Assembly (NCBI RefSeq): GCF_900258515.1
Contig: NZ_LT984884.1
Span: forward strand, 3,221,367-3,285,366
Origin: Lentibacillus sp. Marseille-P4043
GTDB taxonomy: Bacteria; Bacillota; Bacilli; Bacillales; Amphibacillaceae
Direction of reading: 5' to 3'
Length of the DNA: 64,000 bases
This document shows, piece by piece, positions 6,440-52,324 of the stretch. Position 1 is the stretch's first letter. The number at the start of each line of letters is the position of its first letter. Under the pieces are notes generated by a model. The model saw only the letters and a program-made list of their open reading frames with translations, was not told the origin of the DNA and made no database searches. Both the position numbers and the translations under genes were made by a program.

Positions 6440-7360
6440 ATGAGAATGCCAGTTGTCTACTTATCGATCGTATTCGTAATGGTGTTATGGGGATTTAATG
6501 TCATTGCGATTAAGGTTATCGTGGAACAGTTTTCACCTGTTACCATTACTGCCCTACGCATCTTTTTGGCTTCGATTGTTGTATAGATTATTTTATGGAA
6601 GCAAGGGAATATTCGACTACCAAAACAAAAGGAAATTTTATATGTATTGCTTGCGTCCCTAACAGGAGTTCTCGGACATCATTTCTTTTTATCGGTCGGA
6701 TTGACGAAAACAACTGCTTCCAGTACAGGGTTAATATTAGGAACAGTTCCACTTACAACTTCAATCCTTGCAGCAATGATGTTAAAAGAAAAATTATCCA
6801 CATTGAGGGTAACAGGACTTCTATTCGGTCTTACTGGTGTATCAATAGTCGTTCTTTACGGCAGTGCTGGCATATTAGGCATTAACATTGGCGATCTATA
6901 CATCTTCCTTGCCGTTCTATCACAAGCCCTAAGCTTTATTTATATCAAAAGGGCATCAGCTACAATGAAATCAAGTCTCATAACAGGTTCGATGTTGTTA
7001 ATTGGCTCCTTTTTACTTTTTGTCGTCAGTATCGTTATGGAGCCAGCCGGTCTATCCAGCCTAAAAAACGGCACCATTGTCGGTTGGACTGTCTTTCTTG
7101 CCTCGGGAATTTTAGCAACAGGGATAGGACATTTCTTATATAATGGTGCGATTCAGCATATAGGAGCTGGAAGAACTTCTATTTTCCTAAACATGTCACC
7201 ATTTTTTGCTTTGTTGGGGTCCGTTTTATTTTTGGGAGAGGTAATCTCTATCGTACAAATTCTTGCTTTTGTGCTTATTGTAGTTAGTGTGATCCTAGGT
7301 TCTGGTTTGGGTGATAGGTATGTTTATAGGAGGAGACGTGATTTAAAAGAGAATGCGTAA
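6440..7360 (+). pseudogene. EamA/DMT-family permease, interrupted by an in-frame TAG
   Basis: From the ATG at 6440 (MRMPVVYLSIVFVMVLWGFN, a typical EamA first helix) the frame runs to 7360 with a single break, a TAG codon at 6584-6586 after LASIVV. The frame continues as IILWKQGNIRLPKQKE and the rest of a ten-helix drug/metabolite transporter. Uninterrupted it would be about 306 residues, the usual family length. The remaining open part from the ATG at 6647 lacks the first two helices. No frameshift is needed, so a recent nonsense mutation (or a sequencing error) explains it. Its place after the SigL-driven operon suggests a former role in moving the operon's substrate or product. Confidence 0.8.
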
Positions 7361-7455
7361 TAAAATAATTTACTTTTAAAACCTACGTGAAGAATCCAAC
7401 AGTAAATCATATTATCTATATTTAATAGATTTTTCATTCTATCAATATTTCGAGA

Positions 7456-7485
7456 GCTAGTATTAATACAAAATTTAATACTGGC
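7456..7485 (+). terminator. AT-rich hairpin downstream of the permease pseudogene
   Basis: GCTAGTATTAA pairs with TTAATACTGGC (11 bp, one G-T pair) around an eight-base loop, followed by CTTTAAAA. It shares the CCAGTAT core with the palindrome at 6373-6396. The U-tract is weak, so the terminator call is tentative. Confidence 0.4.
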
Positions 7486-7626
7486 CTTTAAAATTCACGA
7501 TCTACCACCACTAAAAATTTATTACAAAACCTATAGTAACCTTTTATACCAAATTTAAATCTTACACACTCTCCCATGATACAAATCTTACATGTTAATA
7601 TAAAAGAACAATGGAGGTTTTATGTT

Positions 7627-8736
7627 ATGAATATTGACTTTAAAAGTAGGCTAAAAACATTGCAAAATAATTTAATTAAGAGCAACATTGATGTAGCAAT
7701 GATTACATCACCAGCAAATGTATTCTATTATACTGGGTTCAATTCCGACCCACATGAAAGATTCATGGCTCTAATTTTGGATTGTCGTAATCAAGAATTC
7801 ACCTTGTTTGTTCCTGCATTAGATAAGGAAATTGCCGATAGTGAATCTATTGTTAAGAACATCATTCCAATTTCTGACGAAGAAAATCCTTACGATAAAC
7901 TTAAGGATGAACTTGGAGATAAAATAAACCATTTCGGGCTGGAAATGAAATTTGTAAGCATGATTCAGCATCAACATTTGATAACTGCCTTTCCCGAAGC
8001 TACTTATAAAGACATCCAACCATTTATCAATGCACAACGTCTAAAAAAATCCAAAGACGAGCTGGTATATGTACAAAAAGCAGTTGATATCATTGAAAAT
8101 GTTCTGGCTGAAGGGATTAAAAAAGTAAAAATAGGTATGACCGAATTGGATTTAACAGCTGAATTGGAATATCTAATGAAAAAATTTGGTGCAGAAGGTC
8201 CATCATTTTCAACCATCGTATTATCTGGAGAAAAGGCCGCCTTGCCACATGGAACTCCTGGAAACCGCTCTTTCCAAAAAGGTGATTTTTTACTAATTGA
8301 TATGGGTGTACAAATAAGTGATGGTTACTGTTCAGATATAACAAGGACCTTTATTATCGGTGAAGCAACGGATAAGCAAAAAGAAATATATGAAATAGTA
8401 CTTAAGTCCAACCAAGCAGGCATCAATGCTGTCAAGGAAGGAGTACCACTTAAAACGTTTGACATTGAAGCAAGAAATGTCATCAAGGAAAGCGGTTATG
8501 GTGATTATTTTAATAACCGTGTAGGACATGGTCTCGGTATCGAAGTACACGAGGAGCCATCTGTTCACGAAAACAACAATCAAACTGCTGAAAAAGGATT
8601 ACTGTTTACAATTGAACCCGGGATTTACATACCCGACTTTGGCGGAGTTCGAATAGAGGATGAAATTTATATAAATGAAAATGGAGAAAGAGAAGTGCTG
8701 ACTTCCTTTCCAAAAGACTTGCAAATATTAAAATAA
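7627..8736 (+). CDS. M24 family Xaa-Pro dipeptidase/aminopeptidase
   Basis: The protein has about 369 residues from the ATG at 7627, nine bases after TGGAGG; the longer frame from 7576 has no ribosome site. It has a creatinase-like N-terminal domain (MITSPANVFYYTGFNSDPHE) and a C-terminal pita-bread metallopeptidase domain. The metal ligands appear in order: two Asp in LLIDMGV and GYCSDITRTF, His in GHGLGIEVHEEP, Glu in FTIEPGIY, and Glu in GVRIEDEIYI. It should cleave X-Pro bonds in the cytosol and so release proline or hydroxyproline from peptides, which fits the neighbouring racemase and dehydrogenase genes. It ends before a strong terminator. Dipeptidase versus aminopeptidase cannot be told from sequence. 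Confidence 0.9.
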   Translation: MNIDFKSRLKTLQNNLIKSNIDVAMITSPANVFYYTGFNSDPHERFMALILDCRNQEFTLFVPALDKEIADSESIVKNIIPISDEENPYDKLKDELGDKINHFGLEMKFVSMIQHQHLITAFPEATYKDIQPFINAQRLKKSKDELVYVQKAVDIIENVLAEGIKKVKIGMTELDLTAELEYLMKKFGAEGPSFSTIVLSGEKAALPHGTPGNRSFQKGDFLLIDMGVQISDGYCSDITRTFIIGEATDKQKEIYEIVLKSNQAGINAVKEGVPLKTFDIEARNVIKESGYGDYFNNRVGHGLGIEVHEEPSVHENNNQTAEKGLLFTIEPGIYIPDFGGVRIEDEIYINENGEREVLTSFPKDLQILK

Positions 8737-8847
8737 GATGTTCAATTAGCTATTTATCTCATTATCGGAAAACTTTTAATAAGTAAGCAGAATACAATAA
8801 TTATAGCTGTAGTCAGAAAGCATGGTTTTTGGACTTCCTTTAAATAC

Positions 8848-8880
8848 TAAAATCACCGCCCAAACAAGGCGGTGATTTTA
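8848..8880. terminator. Bidirectional rho-independent terminator
   Basis: TAAAATCACCGCC and GGCGGTGATTTTA form a perfect 13-bp stem with a seven-base loop, lying between the X-Pro peptidase gene and the convergent EAL fragment. The A- and T-rich flanks suit termination in both directions. Confidence 0.88.
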
Positions 8881-8895
8881 AACTGTCAATAATAT

Positions 8896-9254
8896 CTAAA
8901 CCATCTCCAACAATCCCGTCAACTCTCCCGGTGGTAATGGCTTACTAAAATAAAATCCTTGCATTTCATCACATTTTTCATTCTCTAAAAATGTAAGCTG
9001 ATCAACAGTTTCGACCCCTTCAGCTATTACTTTCATATTTAAAGAGTGGGACATGCGGATAATCGATTTGACAATAGCTTGATTTTGCTTCTGGTCTTCA
9101 TCCATAAACATTTTATCAATTTTCAGCTTTGTAATCGGGAAAATACTTAAATACTTAAGTGATGAATACCCTGTTCCAAAATCATCAATCGAAACCAGGA
9201 CTCCTAATTTTCGTAATCGGCTCATCATCTCTAAAATATATTCTTCGTTTGATG
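8896..9254 (-). pseudogene. 3' fragment of the PAS-GGDEF-EAL gene, cut off by the IS3-family insertion
   Basis: This fragment encodes the C-terminal part of an EAL phosphodiesterase domain: SIDDFGTGYSSL with the metal-binding Asp pair, the lysine in KLKIDK, the glutamate in IAEGVET, and QGFYFSKPLP. It begins at the insertion point and lacks its own start and ribosome site. Joining it to the 5' fragment (10776-12375) after removing 9255-10775 and one copy of the three-base duplication gives an unbroken reading A-M-S-S-N-E-E-Y. All catalytic residues would then be present. It is probably not translated alone. Confidence 0.88.
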
Positions 9255-24093: not shown

Positions 24094-24355
24094 CCATTTG
24101 TAGCAGAACCAGAAATCCAATAAATTTTCTATCACCAACAAATATTAGAAGTTAATACTACTGTGAATTGCCCTGATGTTTTTGTTGTAAATTTTTCTGT
24201 GATTTGAGATGTTTTTCTCTTGTTTGCACCTCTAAAGAGAACCCATTATGTTTTTACATGGTGAGCTCATTTCTTTGTTGTCCTTCGATAACGAAATTGT
24301 ATAAAAATGTTTCGTAAGTTAAATGCTATTAAAAAACAATCAAGGAGTAGTCAAA

Positions 24356-25348
24356 TTGGAACATGAAAACATACGATTAACGTCAACGGAGATTTCCGCT
24401 TTGTGGACGATTTATAACGAGAGTACAGCTACAAATTGTTTTTATAAGCATTTTCTAAGGCATCTGAAAGACAAAGAAATTATACCAATCATCGAAAATG
24501 CTATATCGTTGAATGATTCGATAATTAATGACATAGAAAGAATATTAACTGAAGAAAGATTTCCCATTCCAAAAGGATTTTCTGATGAAGATGTTAACTA
24601 TTCTGCACCTGCACTCTTTACCGATTTGTACGCATTAAGTTTTGTCTATCGTGAGGAACGTGTCGTGCATGTACTTTATGCATCGATGTTAGGGAAAGTG
24701 GTTCGAACAGATATTTTTGCCTTTATCGAGGAATGTTTATACACTTCTGTTGCATTGTATAAAAAAGCCCTTCATCTCATGGTATCCAAAGGAATTTATG
24801 ATCGACCACCGAAAATTGCTTATCCAGAGAATGTGGAGTTTGTTCAGGATCGACCTTCCTTTCTAAATACATGGATTGGCGAAGGAAGGCCACTTAATAC
24901 ATTGGAGATTGGTGAAATCTTTTGCACAATTGAACGAAATTGTATTGGATTGATATTACTAATCGGATTTATCCAAGTAGCAACCGATAACAAAGTCAAA
25001 GAATACTTCAAAAAAGGGAAAAAATTAAGCGAAAAACAGATCGATACGTTTAACAAAGTTTTAAAAGACAGCAAACAAGTTCCCATTTTCCCCGTAACAT
25101 TGGAGGTTACAGATTCTACGATATCGCCATTTTCGGAGCGATTAATGATGTTTTTTATTACCTCAACAAATCAGGTCGGCTTTACGACACTAAGTACTTC
25201 ATTATCCGTCTCCATGAGAAAAGATTTAGGGTTGCACTATTCTCATTTTATAGGAGAAATCTTGAAATTCGGTAATGAAGGGCTAAACATTATGATTGAA
25301 AAAGGATGGATGGAGCAGCCACCTTTATCAACAAACAGGAAGGGGTGA
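24356..25348 (+). CDS. DUF3231 family protein
   Basis: The product is about 330 residues from the TTG at 24356, eight bases after AAGGAG; the ATG at 24323 has no ribosome site. It consists of two similar helical halves (LTSTEISALWTIYNESTA..., and RPLNTLEIGEIFCTIERN...), the duplicated four-helix, ferritin-like layout of DUF3231 proteins common in spore-formers. No conserved metal-ligand set could be confirmed by eye. It is flanked by the GC-rich repeat upstream and a bidirectional terminator downstream, so it is a single-gene unit. Function unknown. Confidence 0.8.
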   Translation: MEHENIRLTSTEISALWTIYNESTATNCFYKHFLRHLKDKEIIPIIENAISLNDSIINDIERILTEERFPIPKGFSDEDVNYSAPALFTDLYALSFVYREERVVHVLYASMLGKVVRTDIFAFIEECLYTSVALYKKALHLMVSKGIYDRPPKIAYPENVEFVQDRPSFLNTWIGEGRPLNTLEIGEIFCTIERNCIGLILLIGFIQVATDNKVKEYFKKGKKLSEKQIDTFNKVLKDSKQVPIFPVTLEVTDSTISPFSERLMMFFITSTNQVGFTTLSTSLSVSMRKDLGLHYSHFIGEILKFGNEGLNIMIEKGWMEQPPLSTNRKG

Positions 25349-25397: not shown

Positions 25398-26381
25398 TTA
25401 ATCTCTAACGCGAATCGCAATTTTTCCAAACTGCTTTCCTTGCTCTAAGTAATCCATCGCTTCGTTTGCCTGATCAAGCGTAAAGGACTTGTCCACTACT
25501 GGATGAATGTTATGATCCTCGATGAACTTCAGCATATCACGAAGTTCTTCTCTACATCCCATCGTTGAACCAATTAATTGATACTGCCCATAGAAGAAGT
25601 CACGCAGATTCAGTTCAACTGTATCTTCCGTTGAAGACCCAAAAATAACGATTCTGCCACCCTTTTTCAGCACTTCCAAAGATCGATTAAATGTTGCACG
25701 GCCTACACTATCAATTACAAGATCTATTGTTTCGTCTTTTAATTCTTCCGGCCAATCGCTTGCCGTATCAAGCGCAATATCAGCGCCTATTTTTTTGGCA
25801 TGGTCTCGTTTTTGTTCACTGCGGGAAGTAACAATTACACGCGCACCCTTCTGTTTTGCAAACGCAATCAGATAGGTTGCTACACCACTTCCTGCTCCTG
25901 GTATGAATACAGTTTCCCCAACTTTTAATTCGCCTTTCGTAAACAGAGCCCTGTAACCAGTTAATGCTGAGAGGGCTAGTACTCCGGCTTCATCCCATGA
26001 TAAATGGGATGGCTTATGCTCTACCTGTTCAGCCGATAAAACAATTCTTTCAGCAAACGTTCCATCGTCTGGCATACCCAAAATGTCGAATTCCTTTGGT
26101 GGCGCAACACTGTTTTCGTACCACCGTAGTCCAGGATTAATGATCACCTCATCACCTACAGAAAATTGTTCAACACCAGCACCAACAGATTCAATTACTC
26201 CCGCTCCATCAGACCCAATGACAAGTGCTTGTGCATCATTCCCCCTGCGATTTGGAATAAACAGATCCCGATGATTAAGACCGGCCGCATGAATTGCAAC
26301 AACTACTTCTCCATCCCCTGCTACTGGATCGTTCATATCTTTTATTAAGAGATTTCCGTGATCATGAACAAATGCTTTCAT
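25398..26381 (-). CDS. Zinc-binding-dehydrogenase-like MDR oxidoreductase (YogA/quinone reductase type)
   Basis: This 327-residue medium-chain reductase has an N-terminal GroES-like domain (AAGLNHRDLFIPNRRG, VIGSDGAGVIESVG) and a Rossmann domain with VFIPGAGSGVATYLIAFAKQKG and an NADPH-type loop VTSRSEQKRDHA. The Asn-His-Arg in place of the zinc ligands and the lack of a structural-zinc Cys cluster point to a zinc-free NADPH-dependent reductase. I chose the ATG at 26381 behind GAAAGGAT; the ATG at 26390 overlaps that site. It lies 13 bases after the ArsA-like gene and is probably in its operon. Substrate unknown. Confidence 0.85.
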   Translation of the reverse strand: MKAFVHDHGNLLIKDMNDPVAGDGEVVVAIHAAGLNHRDLFIPNRRGNDAQALVIGSDGAGVIESVGAGVEQFSVGDEVIINPGLRWYENSVAPPKEFDILGMPDDGTFAERIVLSAEQVEHKPSHLSWDEAGVLALSALTGYRALFTKGELKVGETVFIPGAGSGVATYLIAFAKQKGARVIVTSRSEQKRDHAKKIGADIALDTASDWPEELKDETIDLVIDSVGRATFNRSLEVLKKGGRIVIFGSSTEDTVELNLRDFFYGQYQLIGSTMGCREELRDMLKFIEDHNIHPVVDKSFTLDQANEAMDYLEQGKQFGKIAIRVRD

Positions 26382-26394
26382 TACAATCATCCTT

Positions 26395-27318
26395 TCAAAA
26401 ATGAGTACTAAATTTTTCTAAATCCTGTTTGCTGGTTATATCTGTTGAGAATAGTGGCACACGGATTAATTGCTGTTTCGCAAATGTTTCTTCAATCATT
26501 TGGAGATGTTGCTTTTCGTATTCTTTTCGTTTTTGTAAAAATTCCCCATCCGCGTTTTCTGGTAAAACTTTATTCACAATTAATGTTTTCACATGCAGAT
26601 GATAGTTATCAAGTAATTTGATCGCCTTCTCCGTCTCTAAAATAGGAAGTCGCTCCGGATTTAAGACAAATATAAAACTTGTAACCGCTGGATTTAATAG
26701 CATTTCTCTCGCCTTGGAAAATCGCTTCTGACGTTTTTTGAGAACATCATAGATTGGATCCTCAATTGGTTCCCCATCATTTAGAAGCTGTGAGTAATTT
26801 TCATTCGTTTTCTTACGTTTTTCCAACATTCCTTCAATCCATACTCCCATTAGTTCGGGTAATGATAATAATCGGATCGTGTGCCCTGTCGGCGCCGTAT
26901 CAAAAATAATCGTATCATAATTCTCGCTCTCTTCCAGAATAATCGAGATTAGTTTATCAAATAAAGCAGCTTCATCAGCACCTGGAGACGCCTTTGCAGT
27001 ATCTAATTGACGATGAACCTCTTCCATCATACCGGAATGAACAACACCTTTAATATTTTCCTTTACCCCTTTGATATAGTTGTTTGTTTCTACTTCCGGG
27101 TCAATTTCCAGTGCGGAAAGTTGCTGTGAAATTCGGCTTATTTTCCCGCCAATTTTTTGATTAAATATATCACCAAGGTTATGTGCTGGATCTGTCGAGA
27201 CAAGTAGCGTTTTTTGTGCTTCATTTGCTGATTTCCAAGCTACTGCTGCGGCTGTGGTAGATTTCCCGACACCACCTTTCCCCCCAATGAAAACTATTTT
27301 TTTCGTTAATTCCTGCAT
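26395..27318 (-). CDS. ArsA/GET3-type ATPase
   Basis: The 307-residue protein is a SIMIBI-class ATPase of the ArsA/GET3 family. It has a deviant P-loop GGKGGVGKSTT at residues 12-22, STDPAHNLGDIF (switch I region), and DTAPTGHTIRLL (switch II). It is a single-domain form, like Get3, and is not the duplicated ArsA pump. The start ATG lies after AAAGGGG; the longer frame adds unrelated residues. No arsB or arsenite operon is near. It follows a CC-terminal small protein by 47 bases and precedes an MDR oxidoreductase. Possible roles are metalloid handling, membrane-protein targeting or a redox-sensing ATPase; sequence does not decide. Confidence 0.9.
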   Translation of the reverse strand: MQELTKKIVFIGGKGGVGKSTTAAAVAWKSANEAQKTLLVSTDPAHNLGDIFNQKIGGKISRISQQLSALEIDPEVETNNYIKGVKENIKGVVHSGMMEEVHRQLDTAKASPGADEAALFDKLISIILEESENYDTIIFDTAPTGHTIRLLSLPELMGVWIEGMLEKRKKTNENYSQLLNDGEPIEDPIYDVLKKRQKRFSKAREMLLNPAVTSFIFVLNPERLPILETEKAIKLLDNYHLHVKTLIVNKVLPENADGEFLQKRKEYEKQHLQMIEETFAKQQLIRVPLFSTDITSKQDLEKFSTHF

Positions 27319-27365
27319 GGTAAAAGCCCCTTTGTTTGAATGATTGATAGCTGCTTTCTGCCTTT

Positions 27366-27623
27366 CTAGCAACAACGGATTCCAGACATTGGTGATTTGT
27401 CCATGCCCATTCGCAAATGCCAGTCGTGAAATTTTTCGATCATATACGGATACAATTCAAGTGTATAATAATAAACCGGATTTGGAATTCCAATCATCTC
27501 GGAATATAGTAATAATAAAAATAAGTCATCCTCATTCCTTAACTCCCTGGCAATTTCCTGGCGATGTGGCATGCTTAGTACTTCTTCGTAAAAATCTACT
27601 AGTTTTTTTAATTTATCGAACAT
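27366..27623 (-). CDS. Cory-CC-star family small protein (C-terminal Cys-Cys)
   Basis: The 85-residue protein (MFDKLKKLVDFYEEVLSMPHRQ..., then IPNPVYYYTLELYPY) is mainly helical and ends in GIRCC, two cysteines directly before the stop. Length, the terminal CC and the partner gene fit the cory-CC-star family, known to occur beside ArsA-type ATPases, with no described function. The terminal dithiol could bind a metal(loid) or be a redox handle presented to the ATPase. Its ATG has GAGGTG five bases upstream, inside the end of the small ORF at 27628-27789, so the two may be coupled. Confidence 0.82.
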   Translation of the reverse strand: MFDKLKKLVDFYEEVLSMPHRQEIARELRNEDDLFLLLLYSEMIGIPNPVYYYTLELYPYMIEKFHDWHLRMGMDKSPMSGIRCC

Positions 27624-27627
27624 GGTT

Positions 27628-27789
27628 TCACCTCATTTTTTTGGAAAGGTTGTTTTCACATTGTTTGTTGATTTCTGTCCCGCAGCCCGTACATATTTCG
27701 TTTTCCGGGCCGACTGGCAAGCAAATATTCTTCTCTTTAGGGAATGGAAGGTTTTCCTTCAGTTCAAATAAGCAGAAAAGGGACCACAT
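27628..27789 (-). CDS. Possible 53-residue cysteine-rich small protein
   Basis: A leftward frame begins at the ATG at 27789, eight bases after GGGGGATC, and stops at 27628, four bases before the cory-CC-star start whose ribosome site it contains. The product starts MWSLFCLFELKENLPFPK and has a CxxC motif in ENEICTGCGTEINKQCEN, suggesting a small metal or redox site. Against it: the 3' half (27648-27720) is homologous to the MITE-like repeat at 45786 and 46782, which is non-coding there. Either the repeat supplied part of a real small gene or the frame is accidental. The neat spacing favours translation but does not prove it. Confidence 0.45.
   Translation of the reverse strand: MWSLFCLFELKENLPFPKEKNICLPVGPENEICTGCGTEINKQCENNLSKKMR
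27648..27720 (+). repeat. Diverged relative of the ~130-bp MITE-like repeat
   Basis: The plus strand contains TGTTTTCACATTGTTTGT, identical to the corresponding part of the copy at 46782-46908 (minus strand). It is followed by a GTCCCGCAGCCCG...TTTCG...CCGGG segment that parallels the copies at 45786 and 46782. Only about half the element can be aligned by eye. Confidence 0.5.
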
Positions 27790-27830
27790 TTAAAATGATC
27801 CCCCAAATCCTCGATTATTGAAACAAATCT

Positions 27831-29579
27831 TTACTTTGCATTTATATTATCATTCGGTATATCATTATCTGATTTCCCTAACAAGACGGATCCTGCAGTA
27901 AGCACAATCCATACTGCGAAGACAAAGATAATCGCACCAAACACAAATAACAACATATTTGAACTAGTACCAATCCATGACCATTCAAAGATTACTTGTT
28001 TAAACATGGCCCATAACGTCATAAACATTACGAAAATCATTGGAATTAACACAATCGCGTAATTTCGGCCTAATCGTTTGAGCCAAATGGCAATCAGTAA
28101 TAGACTAATTCCGGCAAGCAGCTGATTGGACGTTCCAAACAATGGCCATAGGAGATAACCACCTGAACCAAAGCCTTTTGGTCCTTCAGGTATTAATACC
28201 AATGCAGCACTGGAGACGACAGCAACAGTTGTAGCTACATGCGTTTTTGATAATACTGGCATTTTATATTCAATACCTAACTCTGCAATAATATAACGCA
28301 TAAGCCGTACAGAAGTATCCAACGATGTAGCGGCAAAGCTAACAACAATTACAGAAACAATTGTTGCTGCCACATCAGCTGGGATCATTAAGCCCGTTGC
28401 TAATTTACTCGCACCTTCAACAAATACATTTAATCCTGCTCCATTAGCTGCTGTAAAACTACTATAGGTTGCTAAAAATTCATCCGTATTGGCAAAGAAT
28501 GTAACAACGGCAATAATGGCGATTAACGCTAATGCTCCTTCACCAACTGCACCTAAATAACCAACCATCCGTGCATCCGTTTCTTTGTTTAATTGCTTTG
28601 ACGATGTACCGGATGATACAAGTCCATGGAATCCAGAAATAGCTCCACATGCAATCGTAATAAACAATAATGGGAACCAAGAAACATCGGTATCCACGTT
28701 GGTTGCTGGTGCCGTTATATCTGGATTCATGAAAATTAATCCTAAATAAAGAATGGCTAGACCAACAATTAGCTGATGTGAATTAATAAAGTCACGTGGC
28801 TGTAGCAATTTCCAAACTGGCATTGTCGAAGCAATATATACATATACCATTAAAATAATAATCCAAATAAAAAATGCTGATGAAACGGCACCCAAACCAA
28901 ATAGCCCTGCGCCATTTTCTCCACCCATGTATTGAACTAAATCAATCTGCAGAAAATCTACCTTACTAGCTATTACCGCAGTGAGGTACATAATAGCTAA
29001 AGCGATTAAAGATGGTACAAGCATTTTTTGTTTTCGTTTGTATACATTATAGCCAATCCAGATTGCTAGCGGAATTTGAATAAATACCGGTAAAACACTA
29101 GCCGGAAATGAAACAAACAAATTCGCAATAACCCAGGCAAACACAGCGTTTACCATTAAAACGAGGATAAGAATTATAAATAAAAACAAGATTTTCGCTC
29201 GCTGTCCAATCAATTTGTTTGCAAGTGTACCGATTGATTGACCTTTGTTACGGACTGATAACACAAGCGTCCCAAAATCATGAACACCTGCAGCAAACAC
29301 CGTTCCCAAAATAACCCATAAAAACGCTGGGACCCAACCCCAATAAACTGCTATAGCTGGTCCAACAATTGGTGCTGCACCTGCAACAGATGTAAAATGG
29401 TGCCCCCAAAGCACAAATTTATTGGTAGGAACAAAATCAACACCATCTTCATAGGTGTGTGCCGGTGTTTCATAATTCGGGTCCAAACGAAAAATTTTCT
29501 CAGCAACAAATTTGGAATAATACCGATAGCCTAATGCAAACACAATAATACCAATAATCGCAACCAAAATACCGCTCAT
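27831..29579 (-). CDS. cstA: CstA-type carbon starvation protein / peptide or pyruvate permease
   Basis: The 582-residue polytopic protein belongs to the CstA family (PF02554). Typical segments are YYSKFVAEKIFRLDPNYETPAHTY (in part), GHHFTSVAGAAPIVGPAIAVYWG, GVHDFGTLVLSVR and SGFHGLVSSGTSSKQL. CstA/YjiY proteins take up peptides or pyruvate during carbon limitation. The start at 29579 lies behind GGGAGG; the upstream in-frame ATG at 29597 precedes this site. The upstream region carries the 20-bp tandem array. The gene ends 41 bases before the small cysteine-rich ORF, with no clear terminator between them. Confidence 0.92.
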   Translation of the reverse strand: MSGILVAIIGIIVFALGYRYYSKFVAEKIFRLDPNYETPAHTYEDGVDFVPTNKFVLWGHHFTSVAGAAPIVGPAIAVYWGWVPAFLWVILGTVFAAGVHDFGTLVLSVRNKGQSIGTLANKLIGQRAKILFLFIILILVLMVNAVFAWVIANLFVSFPASVLPVFIQIPLAIWIGYNVYKRKQKMLVPSLIALAIMYLTAVIASKVDFLQIDLVQYMGGENGAGLFGLGAVSSAFFIWIIILMVYVYIASTMPVWKLLQPRDFINSHQLIVGLAILYLGLIFMNPDITAPATNVDTDVSWFPLLFITIACGAISGFHGLVSSGTSSKQLNKETDARMVGYLGAVGEGALALIAIIAVVTFFANTDEFLATYSSFTAANGAGLNVFVEGASKLATGLMIPADVAATIVSVIVVSFAATSLDTSVRLMRYIIAELGIEYKMPVLSKTHVATTVAVVSSAALVLIPEGPKGFGSGGYLLWPLFGTSNQLLAGISLLLIAIWLKRLGRNYAIVLIPMIFVMFMTLWAMFKQVIFEWSWIGTSSNMLLFVFGAIIFVFAVWIVLTAGSVLLGKSDNDIPNDNINAK

Positions 29580-29763
29580 TAATTCAACCTCCCTCATTTT
29601 ATTTAGATAAGTCCTGTGTCCTACTAAAAAATATGTGAAAACTCTTTATATTAGTACAAATATAACTGATAATTTTGAATATGTAAATATTTCAGTGAGG
29701 ATTGTTTAATTATTATTGGAAGAGGTTCACTGGATCGGAATGATAGTTTGTTATCGCACGATT

Positions 29764-30083
29764 TTTCTGCTCTCGGGCCGATGTTCTCGCTCTCGGGCTG
29801 ATGTTCTCGCTCTCGGGCTGATGTTTCTGCTCTCGGGTTGATGTTTCTGCTTTCGGGCTGATGTTCTCGCTCTCGGGCCGATGTTTCTGTTCTCGGGTTG
29901 ATGTTTCTGCTCTCGGGTTGATGTTTCTGTTCTCGGGCTGATGTTCTCGCTCTCGGGCTGATGTTTCTGTTCTCGGGCTGATATTCCTGCTTTCGGGCTG
30001 ATGTTTCTGTTCACGGGTCGATGTTTCTGCTTTCGGGCTGATGTTTCTGCTTTCGGGTTGATGTTTCTGCTTTTGCGCCAATA
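29764..30083. repeat. 20-bp tandem repeat array 1 (about 16 units)
   Basis: The unit TCTCGGGCTGATGTTTCTGC recurs with small variants (GTTCTCGC, TTTCGGG, GGTTG). Because 20 is not a multiple of three and the unit lacks leftward stops, all three leftward frames stay open and read as a 20-residue repeat; I treat those ORFs as spurious. It lies between the cstA promoter region and the terminator of the gene at 30153. Two more arrays of the same unit occur at 40511 and 63784. Confidence 0.9.
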
Positions 30084-32014: not shown

Positions 32015-32590
32015 TTATGCAGTTGCACTTAATAGTGTTCTTGGCTGTTTATGAAACAAGAAAAACACAGCGATTGTACAGATAATGAACGACGGAACAA
32101 TGTATGAGATATTATATAGCAATGAATAAATCCAGACATTCATGCCGTCAACTGCTGATTCAAAAAATACGACTCCCGCAGCAAAATGGGCAATAAAACG
32201 CAACATGGAACCAAGAAGGACACCAGTTAAAATATATGTTATAGATGTCGCTGTATTACCTTCCTTAACTGCACGCTGAATTGGCTTCGCAAAAATACCA
32301 GCAAAACCGATTACGGTAAAAGCAACCGCATAATCAAGCAGACCTTGCCAAAAGTACAATATATACCCTGTTCCTAATGCTACCTGTAAAACACCCCATA
32401 GAAATCCAGATAATAATCCACCTTTTAGCCCCCAACGAAAGGCGACAATGAATACCGGTATCATCGCCAATGAAATCGATCCGCCTTGAGCCCAGATTTT
32501 AAAAGATAAAAATGGAGCAAGATCTAACGCTAATGCTAACGCTGTAAAAATCGCAACCTCAATTAAAAACAATGTACGTTTTTCCTTCAA
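32015..32590 (-). CDS. thiT: Energy-coupled thiamine transporter ThiT
   Basis: The 191-residue, six-helix membrane protein is the thiamine-binding S component of an ECF transporter (YuaJ/ThiT). Family marks are LDLAPFLSFKIWAQGGSISLAMIPVF, here split into LSFKIWAQGGSISL and IPVFIVAFRWGLKGGL, and HFAAGVVFFESAVDGMNVW. It docks on the shared ECF module, encoded elsewhere. The start is the TTG at 32590, nine bases after GGGGAGG. It is controlled by the TPP riboswitch and terminator immediately upstream, so it is repressed when thiamine pyrophosphate is abundant. Confidence 0.93.
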   Translation of the reverse strand: MKEKRTLFLIEVAIFTALALALDLAPFLSFKIWAQGGSISLAMIPVFIVAFRWGLKGGLLSGFLWGVLQVALGTGYILYFWQGLLDYAVAFTVIGFAGIFAKPIQRAVKEGNTATSITYILTGVLLGSMLRFIAHFAAGVVFFESAVDGMNVWIYSLLYNISYIVPSFIICTIAVFFLFHKQPRTLLSATA

Positions 32591-32705: not shown

Positions 32706-32723
32706 ATACCATCAAAAAAGCTA

Positions 32724-32810
32724 CCATCCCTACGCTAGTATTAACTAACAGGTTCAAAGGGTAAGAACAGCACAGTGTTCACTCTCAGCCAAATGGGCTC
32801 CCCCTGTAGA
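32724..32810 (-). promoter_or_regulatory. TPP (THI-box) riboswitch aptamer
   Basis: The minus strand contains the conserved THI elements: GGGGAGCCCATTTGGCTGAGA near the 5' end (in two parts GGGGAGCCC and GGCTGAGAGTG) and ACCCTTTGAACCTG...TAATACTAGCGTAGGGA at the 3' end. With the downstream terminator and thiT this is a standard thiamine pyrophosphate switch. Confidence 0.95.
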
Positions 32811-32879
32811 CTTTTATTTTTATGCTTTTTTCGTTACCTGTATTATAACGTATTCACCAACTAGTAGCAACGCTGAAAT

Positions 32880-52102: not shown

Positions 52103-52137
52103 TACTTAAGATAAGTTTATACGGTTACCTTTAATTC

Positions 52138-52151
52138 AGTCCTGTGAGGCT
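52138..52151 (+). promoter_or_regulatory. PyrR binding loop in the uraA leader
   Basis: AGTCCTGTGAGGCT fits the PyrR anti-antiterminator consensus ARUCCNGNGAGGYU. With the downstream terminator at 52229-52261 it indicates UMP-dependent attenuation. Confidence 0.88.
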
Positions 52152-52228
52152 GGCAAGGTGGAGCAGATGATGGTTTGTTATTGATTAAAACGGTAGAAGT
52201 AAATCTTACTGTTCTATTCGCTCACATA

Positions 52229-52261
52229 CACCTTGCCTATATATAGGCAAGGTGTTTTTTG
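52229..52261 (+). terminator. PyrR-controlled attenuator ahead of uraA
   Basis: CACCTTGCCTATA and TATAGGCAAGGTG form a hairpin followed by seven T, 64 bases before the uraA start. Confidence 0.9.
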
Positions 52262-52324
52262 TATTTTTATCCGCATTATTATAATGGTAGCCGGTAAACC
52301 TAATTTTTAAAAGGAGAGAGAAAA

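Follow-up and report, generated by a model that had tools for sequence, protein, structure and literature searches.

The closest described relative of the locus analysed here is the CstA-CstX-ArsA operon, of which Castillo and Saier recognized 26 cases in 2010, proposing CstX as a possible linker (PMC2963123; what is said of this paper refers to the accessible part of its text). The operons include no ars genes, some members carry tandem ATPases, and the ArsA homologue is a one-domain protein of ~300 amino acids, exemplified by Oih1 of Oceanobacillus iheyensis (307 amino acids, cluster 17). The trees of CstA, CstX and ArsA match in shape, with two potential exceptions, and the cysteines of ArsA are not conserved in the single-domain homologues (PMC2963123). 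In Escherichia coli, CstA is the carrier, yet the small protein YbdD is also needed for CstA-dependent pyruvate uptake: according to the accessible text of PMC5847655, deletion of cstA left 13% of the uptake and deletion of ybdD 20%. A cstA btsT double mutant retained 5%, and a triple mutant that had lost ybdD too failed to grow (same source). The locus considered here lies in a window of 64,000 nucleotides from Lentibacillus sp. Marseille-P4043 (contig NZ_LT984884.1, positions 3,221,367 to 3,285,366) and encodes a CstA-family transporter (hereafter CstA), a small protein of the cory-CC-star family (CC_star) with a Cys-Cys end, and a single-domain ATPase of the Get3/ArsA type.

With its CstA, a CstX-like protein of ~90 amino acids and a one-domain ArsA homologue clustered together, the window contains a further member of the operon type of 2010, among whose described cases is that of O. 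iheyensis (PMC2963123), and the CC protein family already has a name (NCBIfam NF041419). The module is thus not undescribed, contrary to what an earlier note on this DNA suggested. CC_star is very likely the CstX of Castillo and Saier, to judge from size, position and organisms rather than from accessions. The CstX proteins of archaeal cluster 14 are described as having a single transmembrane segment (PMC2963123), whereas no transmembrane-like stretch was seen by simple hydropathy in 80 Bacillota homologues of CC_star (maximal Kyte-Doolittle KD19 values of 0.72–1.36, mean 1.05); this trait probably does not define the bacterial members. The claim that no function is described for the CC-terminal family holds in the literature searched, where titles and abstract openings revealed no experimental work on the CC_star–ATPase pair; subscription papers were mostly outside that search.

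A candidate CstA transport module

All genes of the locus are on the minus strand and are read in the order CstA, CC_star, ATPase and an oxidoreductase of the medium-chain dehydrogenase/reductase (MDR) superfamily. CstA (27831..29597; 588 amino acids, PF02554, with another possible start at an in-frame ATG six codons in) precedes CC_star (27366..27623; 85 amino acids), which ends in Arg-Cys-Cys (RCC), the codons of the two cysteines being at 27369..27374. The ATPase (26395..27318; 307 amino acids from its own ATG) lies 47 bases beyond CC_star, and the MDR/quinone-reductase-type enzyme (25398..26381, with an earlier ATG at 26390) another 13 bases on. The earlier note had listed four closely packed leftward genes; the places and gaps of the CC protein, the ATPase and the MDR enzyme agree with it, but its first member, a CxxC micro-ORF, is judged not to be a gene, and its module boundary took in this ORF and left out CstA, the best conserved upstream neighbour.

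We favour, with moderate confidence, the view that these genes form a CstA transport module, with CC_star as an accessory subunit of the transporter and the ATPase in the service of their complex. CstA would be a secondary carrier with the LeuT fold and with pyruvate or peptides as its substrate; CC_star, a small helical accessory equated with CstX, would dock on CstA via its flexible Arg-Cys-Cys tail, and CstA would need it; the Get3-type ATPase would bind CC_star, perhaps also CstA, and spend ATP on assembling, installing or switching the CstA–CC_star complex, as a dedicated chaperone or regulator and not as an arsenite or redox ATPase. The physical binding of the three proteins, the substrate and the role of the ATPase are what we infer; the need for CC_star in transport is proposed by analogy with YbdD, whose part CC_star most likely plays for its own CstA clade, given its position, size and end residues.

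Conservation of the gene order

The related loci that were compared are the best 80 of 269 confirmed stretches, that is, close relatives with 78–92% identity. The ATPase gene is downstream of CC_star in all 80, which bears out the proposed conserved pair, and CstA is upstream in 79, Salinicoccus albus (L104; L and G numbers denote loci and genomes) being the only exception. The proposed conservation of the four-gene order holds for this pair and in part for the MDR enzyme, which is found with at least 250 bits at 52 loci and at most 350 nucleotides from the ATPase at 50 of them; the micro-ORF is present at none. The MDR enzyme is a frequent but not a constant neighbour.

A sample of 101 genomes of the order (the order sample) was searched independently of the 80 loci. 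CC_star occurs in 38 of these genomes, PF02554 in 91, YbdD (PF04328) in 17 and another small protein, the CC/Se family (NF041239), in 14 (15 sites). Counted as CstA sites were the 74 matches that scored 400 bits or more, which come from 66 genomes; weaker PF02554 matches, with frames of about 480–550 amino acids among the matches listed, were left aside. Every one of the 38 CC_star sites and of the 17 YbdD sites is downstream of such a strong CstA and shares its strand; the distance to the CstA match is no more than 1,245 bases for CC_star and no more than 344 for YbdD. Seven of the 15 CC/Se sites are upstream of a strong CstA and eight are away from CstA. A partner gene thus accompanies 62 of the 74 CstA sites; the other 12 have none, so a CC partner is not a feature of all CstA. 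CC_star and YbdD share no genome of the order sample. The loci of 30 of the 38 CC_star sites all contain both CstA and the ATPase, and in seven of these 30 the MDR enzyme is in view within about 1.5 kb.

The trio also occurs on plasmids. CC_star was found in six plasmid records, and the three that were inspected all have cstA, CC_star and ArsA in succession. In the two of these that are alphaproteobacterial, CC_star overlaps the ATPase gene, and in one of them, from Paracoccus, cstA overlaps CC_star as well.

CC_star, the ATPase and the MDR enzyme

CC_star matches the cory-CC-star profile with 128.8 bits (cut-off 80) over positions 2–80 of 80. The protein with the Cys-Cys end is the product of a real gene, as had been proposed: all 80 homologues end in RCC and both terminal cysteine columns are filled throughout. 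The structural model, of low confidence (pLDDT 66), has three helices and a disordered, floppy tail.

The ATPase matches TIGR00345 (GET3/ArsA/TRC40) with 302.5 bits against a cut-off of 135, and the Walker A motif GKGGVGK[ST] and the motif DTAPTGHT are intact in all 80 homologues. Its match to the ArsA arsenite pump ATPase model (TIGR04291) reaches 162.9 bits, below the cut-off of 650, and it has one domain and none of the three metal-binding cysteines of that ATPase. The best sequence matches in the PDB are ArsA1 (5zme) and the one-domain protein 3zq6, which we take to be an archaeal Get3; its PDB label is that of a putative arsenical pump-driving ATPase. Get3/TRC40 has an important zinc site, a CxxC motif where the two subunits of the dimer meet, although some prokaryotic members may lack it. 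The description of the protein as an ArsA/GET3 ATPase without ars genes is accurate, the type being single-domain. The metal(loid)- or redox-linked function that had been attached to it finds no support in the ATPase: the window protein and its homologues at 62 of the 80 loci are free of cysteine, 18 homologues have some, CxxC occurs in none of the 80, and Cys stays below 30% in every column of the alignment.

The MDR enzyme (PF00107/PF08240) is real and of the zinc-free type, as stated in the earlier note, with neither GHE nor the C..C..C motif in any of the 52 homologues; as a constant part of the module it does not stand.

The transporter and its clades

The window CstA matches PF02554 with 497.6 bits (E 6.7e-149; Pfam cut-off 27). 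An AlphaFold2 model built from 41 sequences (pLDDT 86.5, pTM 0.88) resembles LeuT/APC-fold carriers over most of the protein in structure comparison, so that CstA is, by its predicted fold, a secondary carrier. Cys317, in the motif ACGAISGF, is invariant in 41 of 41 CstA proteins of all classes, and the motif is present in 79 of 79 CC_star-linked CstA; in the model, this residue falls among short helices (308–330) that we take to form a broken helix. As a marker of CC-partnered clades Cys317 is ruled out, being invariant in partner-less CstA too.

In the tree of the 41 CstA proteins, the CC_star-linked, YbdD-linked, CC/Se-linked and partner-less sets (14, 8, 6 and 6 members) each form one split, with support of 0.86, 0.99, 1.0 and 1.0, respectively; seven remote CstA proteins form no single split. 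In these sequences, the clades of CstA follow the identity of the partner gene. The partner-less set comprises six of the 12 sites without a partner, and the label ‘LytST' given to it has thin grounds: ORFs of about 250 and 590 amino acids that are LytTR/LytS-like by size and end letters adjoin CstA in L174, L176 and L180, and only the 250-amino-acid, LytTR-like one in L173. No Get3-type ATPase gene adjoins CstA at the six loci of this clade that were inspected.

The region between cstA and CC_star

The CxxC micro-ORF (27628..27789, minus strand; 53 amino acids) is judged not to be a gene. It is absent from all 80 related loci (tblastn, E 1e-2, no masking); among the 30 loci of the order sample it was matched only in the window's own and in none of the other 29; there is no Pfam match, and the one NCBIfam match, to a zinc ribbon, has E 0.034 and 13.6 bits where 275 are required. 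Its candidacy as a zinc-ribbon gene is rejected. Its ATG (27789–27787) lies inside a terminator-like hairpin (27778..27804, minus strand; 10 pairs, then a T-run), with two bases in the loop and one in the stem. This hairpin, a possible attenuator, is moderately stable (fold z −1.51, 13 of 200 shuffles being equally stable). Scans of the region gave six terminator sites against 4.4 expected and 14 promoter sites against 15.3 expected, counts so near expectation that neither scan is evidence by itself. Across relatives, a hairpin followed by a T-run is present in 43 of 70 CstA–CC_star gaps of up to 260 nucleotides, compared with 4–13 of 70 in ten shuffles, and may set unequal amounts of the products.

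Remote relatives

The CC_star profile has matches in 17 of 249 phylum genomes, only two of them over the cut-off, and, among 14 control genomes, a match below the cut-off in Haloferax volcanii. In nine of the 15 weak-match genomes (G008, G049, G055, G068, G094, G141, G180, G183 and G190), the match is flanked by a CstA-like gene on one side and by a single or tandem Get3-like ATPase gene on the other; the six such proteins that were aligned share with CC_star mainly an LGxP..LLP core. Four of the nine have a second CC_star-like match (L013, L016, L017, L019), and the short loci around these matches contain no ATPase; in L013, L016 and L019 its core ends in HAPHIH, not in CC, and lies several kb from the locus with CstA, the CC_star-like gene and two ATPases. 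Another weak match, in G248 (L021/L160), contains in-frame stops and was set aside.

CC_star relatives ending in DWCC are paired with a Get3-like ATPase at L148–L152, where CstA is not nearby. All five genomes have PF02554 elsewhere, with at least 300 bits in four and a weak match in G168. The neighbours are PdaA and a Cas4-like protein in L148, and a WYL protein and a 130-amino-acid ORF without a match in L150; placement of the pair in a TAXI/DUF1850 locus is ruled out for the two loci of the five that were tested. In L104 of S. albus (6584–9235), CC_star and the ATPase are behind an ORF that by eye resembles glutamine synthetase, to which there is no match near the module at four other Salinicoccus loci.

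Weighing the explanations

Several observations weigh against a dedicated CstA transport module. Six remote CC_star-like proteins beside CstA, aligned from five genomes, lack the CC end, so that the dithiol is not general; five genomes (G021, G045, G065, G168 and G243) keep a DWCC-ending protein with the ATPase away from CstA; and S. albus keeps CC_star and the ATPase with no CstA match in its genome of 2.6 Mb, the completeness of which is unstated. Among the 38 CstA genes with this partner, that of G292 is interrupted by an in-frame stop within the match, an extra ORF separates cstA from CC_star in L178 and in a Cytobacillus plasmid, and cstA is often parted from CC_star by the terminator-like hairpin. 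In the analogous E. coli-type systems, the GTPase beside YbdD is optional, being present in one (Rahnella) of six plasmid regions inspected from 69 records with YjiX relatives, where the gene tables of the plasmids are incomplete. The literature searched holds no binding or transport data for the CC_star–ATPase pair.

A different use of ATP, proposed by Castillo and Saier in 2010 (PMC2963123, accessible part), is that the ATPase energises CstA directly, in the manner of ArsA and ArsB: CstA would become a pump driven by ATP, and CC_star would be the linker that couples the two. We consider this unlikely, although the gene order at the 80 loci and 38 order-sample sites fits it equally, the reported co-evolution of CstA, CstX and ArsA (same source) speaks for it, and the tandem ATPase genes of remote loci recall the two halves of ArsA. 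Given the predicted LeuT/APC fold and the annotation of E. coli BtsT as a pyruvate:H+ symporter, ATP should not be needed for CstA transport as such, and no such ATPase gene stands beside CstA in E. coli cstA-ybdD or at the six loci of the partner-less clade. We prefer an assembly or switch role to energising because carriers of this fold work without ATP and no ATPase gene adjoins cstA-ybdD in E. coli; the present data do not separate the two roles.

Alternatively, CC_star and the ATPase could act like Get3 and target small or tail-anchored membrane proteins in general, with CstA merely co-regulated or one client among others. The persistence of the pair in S. albus and in the five DWCC genomes and the closeness of the ATPase to 3zq6, presumably an archaeal Get3, are in line with such a pair, but CstA adjoins each of the 38 CC_star sites of the order sample, the CstA proteins linked to CC_star (14 in the tree) form one split (support 0.86), and tracking one CstA clade is not expected of a general factor; we rate this quite improbable. 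The function suggested in the earlier note, an ATPase system linked to metal(loid)s or thiol redox in which the CC protein carries the dithiol, is very improbable: the invariant terminal Cys-Cys, the oxidoreductase that often follows the ATPase, and a YbdD gene ending in Cys-TGA in a genome with tRNA-Sec, a hint of thiol or selenol chemistry in the analogous family, are outweighed by the largely cysteine-free ATPases, the absence of ars genes, a near-constant neighbour that is CstA and not a metal pump, the inconstancy of the MDR enzyme, and the six CstA-linked remote relatives without CC.

A CstA transport module would tie the cory-CC-star protein, a family with no stated function, and a Get3-like ATPase to a concrete client, CstA. 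With a small RCC-ending partner already needed for CstA in E. coli, the gene-context proposal of 2010 is now open to a direct uptake test.

Other features of the window

Convergent to the MDR gene is that of a DUF3231 protein (24323–25348, plus strand; PF11553, 280.8 bits). Upstream of cstA, a 20-bp tandem repeat (29760–30071; 15.6 copies, 85% matches) separates it from a 473-amino-acid ORF that looks permease-like by eye. Further away are a TPP riboswitch (32709–32814, minus strand; 65.7 bits), which precedes an ORF for a membrane protein (32015–32590) that is presumably ThiT-like from its appearance, and a PyrR binding site (52124–52262, plus strand; 71.2 bits).

Comparison with known systems

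The ATPase of the window shares with Get3/TRC40 the single domain, GKGGVGK[ST] and DTAPTGHT; the CxxC zinc site of the latter is not found in the window-type proteins (0 of 80), and we know of no tail-anchored client for them. With the arsenite ATPase ArsA it shares the fold family, but ArsA has two domains, metalloid-binding cysteines and ars neighbours, and the window ATPase has one domain and neither the cysteines nor the ars genes.

The CC/Se family is a small-protein gene next to CstA of another clade, with Cys-Cys in five of six sequences read; it is upstream of CstA and its CC is internal, whereas CC_star is downstream and its CC is C-terminal. CC/Se genes are accompanied by an unnamed protein of 169–182 amino acids and also occur away from CstA, at eight of 15 sites. 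An unnamed family of 169–185 amino acids with the motif EHM(S/C)T lies directly upstream of CstA of ~540 amino acids in L167–L172, L200 and L202, the CstA in L202 being a 611-amino-acid ORF; in L167–L172, the CC/Se gene precedes that of the EHM(S/C)T family, and in L169 its CC is CS. The L167 member of the EHM(S/C)T family has no Pfam match over the cut-off, and the L167 and L171 members have no NCBIfam match.

The nearest parallel is with E. coli, where YbdD (65 amino acids) and YjiX (67 amino acids), shorter than CC_star with its 85, both end in RCC and, in CstA-YbdD and BtsT-YjiX-YjiA, follow a CstA-family transporter, as CC_star does in the window. In btsT-yjiX-yjiA, the genes of the transporter and the RCC protein are even followed by that of a P-loop NTPase, as in the window; no NTPase gene follows cstA-ybdD. 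The NTPase in question, YjiA, is a GTPase with a P-loop and a CICC motif, and belongs to a family different from that of the window ATPase, presumably COG0523/G3E. Thirteen distinct Bacillota YbdD genes were read from the 17 sites: 12 end in RCC, and one, behind CstA in L165 (6903–7110, minus strand), ends in Arg-Cys followed by TGA TAA. In the L165 genome, a tRNA-Sec scores above the gathering threshold and is confirmed by ARAGORN (three of the eight genomes searched have such a match), so this YbdD gene may encode a Cys-Sec C-terminus. Homology between CC_star and YbdD/YjiX is not detectable by the tests applied: CC_star has no Pfam match to PF04328, hhalign gives probabilities of 3.9 and 10.2%, and the local profile score was equalled in 36 (alignment A1) and 120 (A3) of 200 shuffles with the tail, and in 7 (A1) and 76 (the wider A3 alignment) without it.

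This parallel between unrelated RCC-ending partners of different CstA clades is what the present analysis adds by way of analogy. The accessible text of PMC2963123 mentions neither the RCC end nor the likeness to YbdD (ybdD has no occurrence there), and the parallel was not met as a stated idea in the literature searched; the NCBI product name ‘CstA-like transporter-associated (seleno)protein' for YbdD relatives indicates that annotators are aware of part of it. It raises the question why unrelated partners of one carrier family share the same three end residues. Tentatively, CstA clades may have independently recruited unrelated small Cys-Cys or Cys-Sec partners (YbdD/YjiX, CC_star and possibly CC/Se), some adding a P-loop NTPase (YjiA or a Get3-like ATPase) that services the partner, and the RCC tail would then have arisen by convergence, to serve as a plug, gate or redox/metal switch; the carrier's single invariant cysteine, Cys317, would sit in the broken helix.

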